DNA of 64,000 nt, taken from the NCBI RefSeq assembly GCF_029167625.1, contig NZ_CP119145.1, forward strand, positions 4,836,001 to 4,900,000. The letters run 5' to 3'. Each line of letters starts with the position of its first letter. Position 1 is the first letter of the stretch. The position numbers and the translations under genes were made by a program. This document shows, in pieces, positions 18,377-23,154 of this stretch. Below the pieces are notes generated by a model. It searched no databases and was not told the origin of the DNA. It saw only the letters and a program-made list of their open reading frames with translations. This DNA comes from Streptomyces sp. AM 4-1-1. GTDB lineage: Bacteria > Actinomycetota > Actinomycetes > Streptomycetales > Streptomycetaceae.

Positions 18377-19129
18377 GCGTTCCGGCGGCTGGGACGGGCG
18401 GTCCGAGCTGAGCGTTCCGCAGGGTGACGGGCGGTCTGGGCGGAGAGTTCCCGGGGTGTGACGCGGGGCCCGGACCGGGCGTGTCCGCGGGTGTGACGGG
18501 CGGGCCCGGGGGTGGGGCGCGTCCGCGTGCGTCGCGGAGGTCCGGGGCACGTGTGTCGGGCGGTCCGGGCGGAGTGTGCCGGCGGTGCGTCGGGCGGGCC
18601 AGGGGTGGCATGCGTCCGCGTGCGTCGCGGAGGTCCGGGGCACGTGTGTCGGGCGGTCCGGGCGGAGTGTGCCGGCGGTGCGTCGGGCGGGCCAGGGGTG
18701 GCATGCGTCCGTGTGCGTCGCATGAGGTCCGGGGCACGTGTGTCGGGCGGTCCGGGCGGAGTGCGCCGGCGGTGCGTCGGGCGGGCCAGGGGCGGCATGG
18801 GTCCGCGTGCGTCGCGGAGGTCCGGGGCACGTGTGTCGGGCGGTCCGGGGCGGCGGGCCGGCGCCCGGCGGGGGAGCCGCACCGGTCCCGGCCGCGTTCC
18901 CGTACGCCGTGCTCGCGCGGGAACCGCATCGAGCCTGCGGGTATTGCCGTACGCCGTCCTCCCGGTACCGCACCGCGCCCGGCGACGCTCCCGTACGCCG
19001 CGCGACCGGGTGGTGCGCGAAGGCGCCGGTTGACCGAGGACGTGAGCCAGGGCACACCTGCCGTATCGTTGAGGCGATCCAGCGACAGATCGGCAGGGCA
19101 GTGCGCAGGGAACGGGCAGGAGGCGGCTG
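18377..19129. other. Intergenic region between birA and cya
   Basis: 753 bp without a supportable gene. Its middle is the 93-bp tandem array described separately. The last ~200 bp, before cya, is less repetitive and contains several CGTACGCCG words and a CAGGAGG ribosome-binding site just before the cya GTG. Long minus-strand frames with 31-residue repeats exist only because the repeat unit is divisible by three. Confidence 0.6.
18519..18853. repeat. 93-bp tandem repeat, about 3.6 copies
   Basis: Copies begin at 18519, 18612, 18705 and 18799 (last one partial, to 18853). Copies 1 and 2 are almost identical; copy 3 is 94 bp with a CATGAGG variant. Each unit starts GCGTCCGCGTGCGTCGCGG and contains GGGGCACGTGTGTCGGGCGG. 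No spacer sequence separates the units, so it is a minisatellite and not a CRISPR array. Confidence 0.85.
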
Positions 19130-20332: not shown

Positions 20333-20645
20333 GGCCTGTATCGAAAAGGGTGGCTCACCCGCACGGATTCCGGCGGCCGGTATCTCTCCGAAGATCGACG
20401 CCATGAGCTGTCGCCGGAAATCTGGATCAACAGGCACGCACCCCTTTTGGACATTCTGAGCCGGGAGCCATTTCGCCCCTTGCATGCGGTAAGGGGCGGC
20501 TGCCAGACTTCAGCCGTGAAACCGGTCTGACGTCCCTTGCCGCAGGGTTGTTGCACATCACCGAACGGCGGAGAATTTCCCCCACGGATTCTTCGCAACG
20601 TTATGGGCGGAAGCGTCTGCCCTCACCGTGCAGCTTGGATCTCTC
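20333..20645. other. Intergenic region upstream of the GNAT-diiron-methyltransferase operon
   Basis: About 300 bp, noticeably richer in A/T than the flanks (for example around 20560-20610). It should hold the operon promoter. No confident -35/-10 pair or terminator is assigned. Confidence 0.4.
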
Positions 20646-21236
20646 ATGCGCATCATGCCAGATCTCCATATTCGCTTTCTCGATGCGAGCGTGCCACCGT
20701 CCTGGCTGGAAGAACTACGGCAGTTCCGTGCGCGGGTCCTCTGGGAGGACGGTCGGAGACCGGAATTCCGGGATGCCGGCGATCGATTCGTGGACGCCGA
20801 TCCGCACGACCTGACCGCGTACCACTTCATCATGCGCGATCAGTCGGACCGAATGGTTGGGTGTCTGCGCCTCGCACTGCTGGAAAGAATTCTCGCCACC
20901 AGCCAGAGCCTCTACATCGATCCTTGTACAGGTGAACTGACCATGGAACGCTACGGCTGTTCCCCTGGGCAGGTGTACGAGTTGGGCCGTTTCGTCATGG
21001 ACCCCGCCTGGCAGCGGAAAGGTCTGGGAGGAGTCCTCCTCCGGGCTGCGGCAGCCCTGGGGCACGAGACCGAACGCCGACTCATATGGGCAATCGCCGG
21101 AACCCGGGACGGGCAGGAAAGGGTCTTTCGGCGCTGCGGCTGGGAACGCGTCACGGAAAAGCCGACCACGATACCCCGGTACGACGACGAAGTGCATCTG
21201 GTCGCCACTTCCACCCGGCCCCGGCACCAGATCTGA
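20646..21236 (+). CDS. GNAT-fold acyltransferase, autoinducer-synthase-like
   Basis: 196 aa from ATG 20646 (202 from GTG 20628; neither has a good ribosome-binding site). The first half has the layout FRARVLWEDG ... RFVDADPHD ... GCLRLALL, then VYELGRFVMDP. That order resembles acyl-homoserine-lactone synthases (R-x-F, E-x-D, V-x-E-L-x-R-F). The acetyl-CoA binding loop is QRKGLGGVLL (about residue 123 on), typical of ordinary GNATs. It probably transfers an acyl group to a small amine; donor and acceptor are unknown. First gene of a tight three-gene operon, 43 bp before the diiron gene. Confidence 0.72.
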   Translation: MRIMPDLHIRFLDASVPPSWLEELRQFRARVLWEDGRRPEFRDAGDRFVDADPHDLTAYHFIMRDQSDRMVGCLRLALLERILATSQSLYIDPCTGELTMERYGCSPGQVYELGRFVMDPAWQRKGLGGVLLRAAAALGHETERRLIWAIAGTRDGQERVFRRCGWERVTEKPTTIPRYDDEVHLVATSTRPRHQI

Positions 21237-21279
21237 TCGAACACCGACCGAAACCAAGGAACAAGGAAGGGAAACAGTC

Positions 21280-22059
21280 GTGACCACAGCAGAGGAATCA
21301 GCCGTGACCAAGGAAGAACTCGTGACCAAGGGGGAACTGTTCGAACGCTACGAGATCGCCCTGGCCGCGACCCGCACGGAGTTCGAGAACAGCCCGGACA
21401 TCAAGTTCCTCCTCGACCCCTCGACCCCGGACGACCTGTTCCACCTGTGGAACCTGCGCTGGACCGCGCACGGCGTCCGGATGACGGAACAGGTCGAGTC
21501 CTGGATCGCCCTGGCCGGGCGGCGCTCCACCGACGTCGGACTCCCCGAACTCGGCCGGGCGCTGGCCGCACACGCCAGGGCCGAGGCTGGGCACGAAAAG
21601 CTGATGATGGAGGACGCCCGCGCCCTGGCCGAGAAGTGGAACGAGCGTGCCAAGGTCCCGATCGACGTCGAGCGGCTGATCGCCAGTGGACCCCTGTATT
21701 CCACCCGGAAATACATCGCCATGCACGAAGAGGTCATCGGCGGTGTCAGGCCCTACCTCCAGATCGGCATAGAGTACGAGATCGAAAGGTTCTCGGTCGT
21801 GGTCCTCCCCGGAATCCTCGAACGCTGCCGGAAGGCCCTGGGGGAGAACGGCTTCACCTTCATCGCCGAGCACGTGGAGATCGACCAGGGGCACACCGCG
21901 TTCAATGAACGGCAGCTCACCAATCTCCTCACGCTCGCCGACGCGAACCTCGTCCCGCTCGTCGAGACCGGACGCTGGGCCCTGCGCTCCTACTACCCGT
22001 TCATCTCCGAATGTCTGCAATTGGCGAAGCGTGACCTGGAGCGCGAGAAGAACGCGTAA
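21280..22059 (+). CDS. Haem-oxygenase-like diiron oxidase/oxygenase (HDO-type, TenA/PqqC-like fold)
   Basis: 259-aa all-helical protein. Candidate iron ligands occur in the order expected for HDO enzymes: Glu102-x2-His105 in RAEAGHEK, a glutamate in IGIEYEIE (Glu165 or 167), and His198-x3-Asp202-x2-His205 in AEHVEIDQGHTAFNE. Characterised HDOs include UndA, BesC and the SznF central domain; they perform decarboxylation, C-C cleavage or N-oxygenation. The substrate here is unknown. GTG 21280 has GGAAGGGAAA upstream. The stop is 2 bp from the methyltransferase start, implying translational coupling. Confidence 0.75.
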   Translation: MTTAEESAVTKEELVTKGELFERYEIALAATRTEFENSPDIKFLLDPSTPDDLFHLWNLRWTAHGVRMTEQVESWIALAGRRSTDVGLPELGRALAAHARAEAGHEKLMMEDARALAEKWNERAKVPIDVERLIASGPLYSTRKYIAMHEEVIGGVRPYLQIGIEYEIERFSVVVLPGILERCRKALGENGFTFIAEHVEIDQGHTAFNERQLTNLLTLADANLVPLVETGRWALRSYYPFISECLQLAKRDLEREKNA

Positions 22060-22061
22060 CC

Positions 22062-22943
22062 GTGCGCGCGTTATGGCGGCTGCCGGGCATCATCCTGCGT
22101 GAAAGGCTCACTCCTGCGGGGAAACGCGCCCGTTTGCCGGAACCCATGGTCATGGACGACCCCGAGTCGGTCAGCCAGTATGACCAGGGCGGCGCCACGG
22201 GGCACTACTTCCGCGCGGTCTACGACCTCAATGCCCGTGCGCTCAGCGCGCTGCTCCCGCCGGGAGGGAGCCTGCTCGATTTCGGGACAGGATCGGGGCG
22301 GGCCCTGCAACACCTCCTGCGGGGCAGACCGGACATCAAGGTCACCGGAATCGATCTCTCCCCGGTCATGCTGGCGGCGGCGCGGGCCACCGGTGCGGGG
22401 GATTCCTCCTTCTCCTCCTTCGGTTCGGTCGAATTCGTCGAGGCCGACATCACCAGCCTTCCGCCCGACATCGTCGACCGGCCGTGGGACGCCGTGTCGT
22501 GCTTATGGACTCTTCACCAACTGCCCGGTACCGACATGCTCGTCTCCGCACTGAGGCAGATGGAGAGGGTGCGTCGGCACTGCGGGGCCGCGCTGTGGAT
22601 TCTCGATTTTCAGCGGCTGAGAAATCCCGCCACCATGCCCGCGCTCCTCGACACCCTGGAACCCGTCTATCCGCCCCGGCTTCGCGCGGACGGCATCGCC
22701 AGCGAAGCCGCCGCCTTCCGGCACAGCGAACTCCGTGCGGCGCTCACCACCGCGGGACTCGCCGATATGCGCTCCAGTACCTCTCGTCCCCTTCCGCATC
22801 TCCAGTCGTTCTGGGCGCCGCCCGCACCGCCTTTCCCGAGCGACCGGAAGGCGCAGCGGTGGCAGTTGGAAGACCTCACCGGTAGGGCGCGTACCGACGC
22901 CCGGCTCCTGCACCGGCGCTTCGGTCACCCCGGAACCCTCTGA
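22062..22943 (+). CDS. SAM-dependent class I methyltransferase with two TTA codons
   Basis: 293 aa. Motif I LLDFGTGSGRALQHLL (about residue 70), acidic motif II VTGIDLSPVM, motif III FVEADITSLP and post-motif WDAVSCLWTLHQL are all present. Codon 4 (22071-22073) and codon 148 (22503-22505) are TTA, read in Streptomyces only by the bldA tRNA, so translation should be developmentally delayed. GTG 22062 begins 2 bp after the diiron gene stop. An internal ATG at 22146 would avoid the first TTA but not the second. Substrate unknown; probably acts on the product of the preceding two enzymes. Confidence 0.85.
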   Translation: MRALWRLPGIILRERLTPAGKRARLPEPMVMDDPESVSQYDQGGATGHYFRAVYDLNARALSALLPPGGSLLDFGTGSGRALQHLLRGRPDIKVTGIDLSPVMLAAARATGAGDSSFSSFGSVEFVEADITSLPPDIVDRPWDAVSCLWTLHQLPGTDMLVSALRQMERVRRHCGAALWILDFQRLRNPATMPALLDTLEPVYPPRLRADGIASEAAAFRHSELRAALTTAGLADMRSSTSRPLPHLQSFWAPPAPPFPSDRKAQRWQLEDLTGRARTDARLLHRRFGHPGTL

Positions 22944-23154
22944 ACGACCCTCTGAACAGCGCGGACGCCGGGACCGGCACGGAGCGGAAGCACCGTGCCC
23001 GGCCCCGGCGTCCGCGTGTCCGCCGTCCGCGCGTTTGGCCTCGGCGTTCCGCGTGTCCGGTCCCCTCGGACGTGTCCGCGCCTTCCGCTCCGGCGTGAGT
23101 CGGCGAGACCGTCCCTTCCGCCCCCGGTGGGGCCACCCCCTACGATCCCTCCAG

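Follow-up and report, generated by a model that had tools for sequence, protein, structure and literature searches.

What do three tightly packed genes, set between ordinary core genes of a Streptomyces chromosome, make together? The question is raised by a stretch of 64,000 nucleotides from Streptomyces sp. AM 4-1-1 (contig NZ_CP119145.1, positions 4,836,001 to 4,900,000; hereafter the window), which carries a cassette of three plus-strand genes. An earlier note on this DNA read their products as a GNAT acyltransferase resembling acyl-homoserine lactone (AHL) synthases (gene 1), a haem-oxygenase-like diiron enzyme (gene 2) and a class I methyltransferase (gene 3), and suggested that this mini-operon makes a small diffusible metabolite, possibly a signal. 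We found that conservation links the GNAT to the oxidase and does not extend to the triad. This pairing extends across five phyla, fusions of the two genes included, and points to an undescribed small-molecule pathway.

The evidence for the pair comes from a profile search in which each species was represented by a single genome; it gave 57 loci with the oxidase (loci are identified here by L numbers). The window GNAT alone, compared by phmmer with the open reading frames (ORFs) of the fetched loci, matched 17 other loci, and each matching ORF adjoined or was fused to the oxidase. A GNAT family profile, seeded from such oxidase neighbours and hence partly circular, identified a partner in 27 of the 57 loci (27 of the 32 outside Myxococcota), in every case next to the oxidase or joined to it in one ORF, and with no change of strand; with filters off, its next-best ORF was another GNAT in L002 (E 0.047). 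The 27 pair loci belong to Actinomycetota (8), Pseudomonadota (8), Cyanobacteriota (6), Acidobacteriota (4) and Bdellovibrionota (1), and include one weak oxidase relative (24%, L058) and two oxidases split into two ORFs (L047 and L056). Clean single-ORF fusions, with the oxidase N-terminal, occur at six loci. When a fusion was used as query, 29 of 31 database matches (one being the query itself) spanned at least 82% of it. From branch to branch of the oxidase tree, the GNAT is found upstream of the oxidase, downstream of it or fused to it, so gene order has changed within a long-lived pairing.

The other 30 oxidase loci have no recognisable GNAT. They comprise 25 from Myxococcota together with L044, L046, L052, L054 and L057; the oxidase runs into the contig end in L046, L054 and L057. 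L060, which was found separately, has no GNAT in its short flanks. All 21 Myxococcaceae loci share an ORF of one cluster, which, where seen, encodes about 760 aa and lies directly upstream of the oxidase. A PilZ domain was detected in the L014 member of this cluster (L014:5698-7974) and in a neighbour in L011, and the C-terminal half of the L014 protein had no Pfam match. A profile comparison for a GNAT inside these PilZ proteins was negative, with only about two effective sequences. In Nannocystis, the downstream ORF of L024 had no Pfam match, in a region where gene calls are in mixed frames. Two further arrangements were observed: an Oligoflexales contig displays a PilZ-FeeM fusion upstream of its oxidase relative (L058:6361-7791), and in Amazonocrinis nigriterrae the GNAT is followed by two oxidase ORFs in tandem, which match each other in length and score (L035:6681-8385).

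Meanwhile, the methyltransferase showed a different distribution. Gene 3 matched Methyltransf_25 and Methyltransf_11 (PF13649, 52.7 bits), in line with the proposed class I assignment. A database search scored 7998 candidates, and among the best 120 of 251 matches at E up to 1e-20 its relatives were 50-57% identical, one near-copy aside, with several from Mycobacterium or Mycolicibacterium. Among 296 genomes of the class (E up to 1e-25), gene 3 matched the window's own genome and four genomes of one other genus; three of these four were fetched, and in all three both the GNAT and the oxidase were missing within 13-14 kb of the gene 3 relative. A phmmer search with gene 3 (E 1e-3) gave no match in any other fetched oxidase locus. 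A survey with four methyltransferase queries, which members of other methyltransferase families would escape, placed related genes less than 4 kb from the oxidase in L002, L023, L028, L034 and L044, in addition to the window. Those of Streptomyces flavofungini (L002) and of three Nostoc loci (L023, L028 and L034) differ from gene 3, the former being 26% identical to it across 139 residues. The triad was therefore rejected as an inherited unit, since no gene 3 orthologue was found in the other pair loci and the three fetched relatives of gene 3 have neither partner nearby.

The predicted structure of gene 2 is a seven-helix haem-oxygenase fold, and its sequence displays the motif E102-x2-H105 ... 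E169 ... H198-x3-D202-x2-H205. In an alignment of 35 relatives, five of these ligand columns are invariant (35 of 35) and H205 is kept in 34; E169 was picked from the alignment to CADD. In the part of PMC11363339 cited here, E-H-E-H-(D/E)-H is the ligand set of haem-oxygenase-like dimetal oxidases. PF14518 scored 25.8 bits against a gathering threshold of 28.9, and this domain is annotated in the database entry for the protein. Gene 2 is predicted, as the earlier note held, to fold as a haem-oxygenase-like diiron oxidase with a complete ligand set, and metal binding and O2 activation are predicted with it. Only 28 of 35 relatives retain E73, which by our own reading of the alignment, and not by superposition, lies on the helix where SznF-type enzymes have an additional glutamate as seventh ligand. 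This incomplete conservation would fit an open Fe1 site that receives a substrate carboxylate, as described for AetD in an excerpt of PMC11611611.

Identity to known haem-oxygenase-like oxidases was about 9-16% in structural alignments. UndA, BesC, AetD, HrmI, PolF and CADD share the fold and the E-H-E-H-D/E-H ligands with gene 2, whereas none of them is described as paired with or fused to a GNAT in the portions of the review PMC13108848 that we cite. Close relatives of gene 2 are rare. Its sister is the S. flavofungini oxidase (support 100/98 in the oxidase tree), and a search of 394 genomes from the class at E up to 1e-15 located the oxidase in three, the window's own among them. At E up to 1e-3, five of 100 relatives matched, of which one was the window's own genome and three were weak partial matches. 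A search of plasmids gave no match, a PDB sequence search with a single oxidase query gave no meaningful match, and a genome-contig scan with a single protein as query gave no relative.

Such rarity, together with the separate origin of the methyltransferase, is what might be expected if the genes were chance neighbours or a decaying remnant with no joint function. We consider this extremely improbable, given the pairing in five phyla, the fusions, the intact ligands and the tight spacing.

Gene 1 exceeded the Pfam cut-offs of Acetyltransf_5, Acetyltransf_1 and Acetyltransf_7. The nine best Foldseek matches of its predicted structure are AHL synthases of the LuxI fold, and the protein carries the VYELGRF stretch, in agreement with the likeness to AHL synthases that had been proposed. 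With a second aligner, AHL synthases, FeeM and ordinary GNATs almost tie for this model. Partner GNATs elsewhere exceeded the FeeM cut-off (L042, 67.1; L058, 49.2), and that of L040 exceeded the Autoind_synth cut-off (40.1 against 24). The Foldseek ranking and the L040 score raise the possibility that the GNAT makes a genuine AHL-type signal from S-adenosylmethionine (SAM), with the other two genes modifying the signal. We regard this as very unlikely, because the window GNAT itself gave no match to Autoind_synth (PF00765) at E up to 10 (HMMER filters drop most weak matches), and because FeeM and TyzA-type enzymes have the same fold and use amino acids. In addition, a scan of five flanking genes turned up no LuxR-type receptor; they encode an adenylate cyclase, an enoyl-CoA hydratase, a biotin ligase, a GGDEF protein and an ABC transporter. 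TofI, LasI, BjaI, RpaI and FeeM are top or near-top structural matches of gene 1; unlike these enzymes, the close partner GNATs display the signature G-x-R-P-x-F, which all 14 members of a selected set carry.

By analogy, the best clue to function is provided by the ThiF and ThiF-nitroreductase partners found within the same GNAT subfamily. The GNAT profile, run against 394 genomes of the class (E up to 1e-8; seven candidates per genome were scored, and weaker relatives may be missing), matched 10 genomes, and seven matches in six genomes were strong (at least 135 bits). Two of the seven are linked to the oxidase (the window and G315:C326), two are fused to ThiF (L097 and L098), two adjoin ThiF-nitroreductase fusions (L104 and L105, with nitroreductase scores of 23.4, just under the cut-off of 23.5, and 29.8), and one (L099/L103) adjoins a methyltransferase. 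L097, L098, L100 and L105 matched the GNAT family profile at 122-155 bits. In the GNAT tree, L097 and L098 group with the oxidase-partnered L003 and L005 (support 80/96). This subfamily has exchanged partners, with the oxidase in some loci and ThiF or ThiF-nitroreductase in others. In two GNAT-ThiF fusion loci (L101:5067-8289 and L102:7921-10835), the single neighbour scanned in each is a homologue of beta-ketoacyl-acyl carrier protein (ACP) synthase III, a possible acyl supplier.

In TyzABC, TrzAS and OxzAB, as described in parts of PMC10404671 and PMC12856293, an N-acyltransferase acylates an amino acid, a flavin oxidase desaturates the product with O2, and ThiF cyclises it. TyzA is reported to be closest in structure to FeeM and BjaI (PMC10404671, in part), both of which are also among the structural matches of the window GNAT model. 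The window cassette resembles these sets in combining an AHL-synthase-like N-acyltransferase with an O2-dependent oxidase, in the small acyl amino acid that would result, and in having GNAT relatives that partner ThiF; its relation to TyzA, TrzA and OxzA is one of gene make-up. It differs from them in that its oxidase is of the diiron and not the flavin type, no ThiF cyclase adjoins it, and a methyltransferase is present. Stieleriacine producers encode an N-acyl amino acid synthase, ThiF, a nitroreductase and a methyltransferase (PMC12479983, in part). The stieleriacine, thalassotalic acid and kyonggic acid clusters, which make N-acyl dehydrotyrosines, share the logic of a synthase followed by an oxidase, and some clusters of the stieleriacine type, those of the stieleriacine producers among them, also include a methyltransferase. 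However, nitroreductase and ThiF stand there where the window has the haem-oxygenase-like oxidase.

Based on this analogy, the diiron oxidase most likely takes the place that the flavin oxidase has in those pathways and would act on an N-acyl amino acid by desaturation or oxidative decarboxylation. We postulate, with even chances of being right, that the cassette is an acquired mini-pathway in which the GNAT acylates an amino acid, the diiron oxidase then oxidises the product at carbon, and the methyltransferase caps it. With acyl-coenzyme A (CoA) or acyl-ACP as donor, the GNAT would acylate an amino acid on its amino group. The carboxylate of the resulting N-acyl amino acid could then bind to Fe1 of the oxidase, and C-H cleavage dependent on O2 would lead to an N-acyl-alpha,beta-dehydroamino acid or, if CO2 is lost as well, to an enamide. 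Finally, the methyltransferase might O-methylate a carboxylate or a phenol. The proposed order, with the oxidase acting after the GNAT, is suggested because the same GNAT subfamily partners ThiF and nitroreductase, as in the tyz, oxz and trz sets.

The reverse order was also considered. The oxidase could act first, in the manner of BesC or PolF, to convert an amino acid into an unusual amine or into an unsaturated or cyclised amino acid, which the GNAT would merely acylate. The tight fusions with an N-terminal oxidase are compatible with either order. Since the same GNAT subfamily partners enzyme families that work after acylation (PMC10404671, in the part cited), we judge that the oxidase is unlikely to come first.

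Several observations weigh against acylation followed by oxidation at carbon. The window GNAT scored 23.9 with FeeM (PF21926), under the gathering score of 27. No column is invariant in the wider GNAT set, which includes the cyanobacterial, acidimicrobial and L040 members, and the partners thus need not all perform the same reaction. The 25 myxococcal oxidases have no recognisable GNAT at all. The joining of ThiF-partnered and oxidase-partnered GNATs rests on the one support of 80/96. Neither ThiF nor a flavin oxidase was found among the five flanking genes scanned, so no oxazolone would be expected. Lastly, the Microbispora locus (L003:7959-11848) encodes the oxidase, the GNAT, a P450 and an aldoxime-dehydratase-like protein, which suggests N-oxidised intermediates and an oxime or nitrile product.

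This locus keeps alive the main rival explanation, namely N-oxygenation. The oxidase would act like HrmI and hydroxylate the nitrogen of an amine, after which the GNAT would acylate the hydroxylamine to a hydroxamate, or else an oxime or nitrile would form, with the methyltransferase acting by O-methylation. Gene 2 is indeed close to HrmI, but CADD and UndA, which perform other chemistry, are as close to it in structure. The aldoxime-dehydratase-like gene was seen in L003 only, and a different gene occupies the equivalent place in L005. Moreover, the ThiF and nitroreductase swap partners are families that act on N-acyl amino acids. Taken together, we rate N-oxygenation as rather unlikely.

Other pair loci carry additional genes in their neighbourhoods. 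In S. flavofungini (L002), the GNAT and oxidase are accompanied by a UbiG-type methyltransferase and a Rieske oxygenase. All six cyanobacterial loci (L023, L026, L028, L034, L035 and L038) display a phenylalanine ammonia-lyase (PAL), a CoA ligase, the GNAT and the oxidase in one order, with an O-methyltransferase in L028, L034 and L023, where it follows these genes. The lyase of L023 (operon L023:3796-10076) scored 940 bits against a solved cyanobacterial PAL-type enzyme, and the CoA ligase is closest to fatty-acyl-CoA or feruloyl-CoA synthetase. Judging from sequence, the operonic lyase is only a close homologue of AvPAL and NpPAL. Orthology is not claimed, as paralogues are possible (the L023 genome has three matches at 80-100%). 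The operon is a possible native pathway for its lyase.

More tentatively, and as a reading less likely than not to be right, we propose that in five bacterial phyla the dedicated oxidative partner of N-acyl amino acid synthases, often fused to them, is a haem-oxygenase-like diiron oxidase and not the known flavin oxidase. The products would be an undescribed family of N-acyl enamides or dehydroamino acids, and in Nostoc and its relatives the adjoining PAL and CoA ligase would provide a cinnamoyl group for the acylation. If so, diiron and flavin enzymes would be interchangeable solutions for N-acyl amino acid oxidation, and Nostoc-type lyases would gain a role in acyl supply to this pathway.

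Among more than 10,000 sequences of haem-oxygenase-like oxidases, function has been validated for only about a dozen, according to the cited part of the 2026 review PMC13108848. A dedicated and often fused acyltransferase partner indicates the substrate class, making an orphan oxidase branch testable with two small proteins. Among the literature matches listed, from a search that most subscription papers fall outside, no description of such an oxidase paired with or fused to such an acyltransferase was found; in PMC13108848 the word 'fusion' is absent and 'acyl' occurs once. Lyngbyapeptin B (PMC10127204), whose text mentions both 'diiron' and 'GNAT', was rejected as an example of the pair, because in the part cited LynB7 is PtmU3-like and the GNAT is a polyketide loading domain.

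The coordinates of the cassette are given in Table 1. The earlier description of three compact genes inserted between cya and an enoyl-CoA hydratase gene agrees with the gaps of 43 and 2 bp and with the Pfam matches of the flanking adenylate cyclase (PF00211, 49.5 bits; left) and enoyl-CoA hydratase (PF00378, 189 bits; right), beyond which lie biotin ligase, GGDEF and ABC-transporter genes. The starts leave some latitude. An in-frame GTG at 20628 is a possible alternative for gene 1, and the GTGACCA at the start of gene 2 recurs at 21304 and 21322. For gene 3 a near-identical database entry has 263 aa, but the long form is backed by numerous relatives, about 290 aa in length, whose alignments cover 98% of the protein.

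Table 1 Features of the cassette, with positions numbered from the start of the window
Feature	Position	Strand	Description
Gene 1	20646..21236	+	AHL-synthase/FeeM-like GNAT N-acyltransferase, 196 aa; proposed N-acyl amino acid synthase
Gene 2	21280..22059	+	Haem-oxygenase-like dimetal oxidase (predicted), 259 aa; ligands E102, H105, E169, H198, D202, H205
Gene 3	22062..22943	+	Class I SAM-dependent methyltransferase, 293 aa; TTA at codons 4 and 148
Inverted repeat, 18-nt arms	22960..23016	.	Directly behind the gene 3 stop; possible transcription terminator

The three genes have a GC content of 63-68%, against 73-76% in five flanking genes of this 7.47 Mb genome. At the cyclase site, 30 loci were fetched, of which one was the window's own and 29 were compared. 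The cyclase and hydratase genes lie at most about 175 bp apart in about 11 of the 29 and about 0.7-1.1 kb apart in 16, some distances being rough owing to a script made for one orientation; the hydratase match was cut by the locus end in L080, and no hydratase was found in L076. None of the three cassette genes had a tblastn match in any of the 29 loci (about 1.5 kb of flank searched). The cassette looks like an acquired insert between core genes, since the two flanking genes are adjacent at this empty site in some related genomes and the GC content of the cassette is lower. Both TTA codons found are in the methyltransferase gene, and seven other genes examined have none; TTA codons are linked to bldA control. 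Further upstream, the biotin ligase gene and the adenylate cyclase gene flank a tandem array (18490-18849) of a GC-rich 93-bp unit in 3.8 copies with 94% matches.
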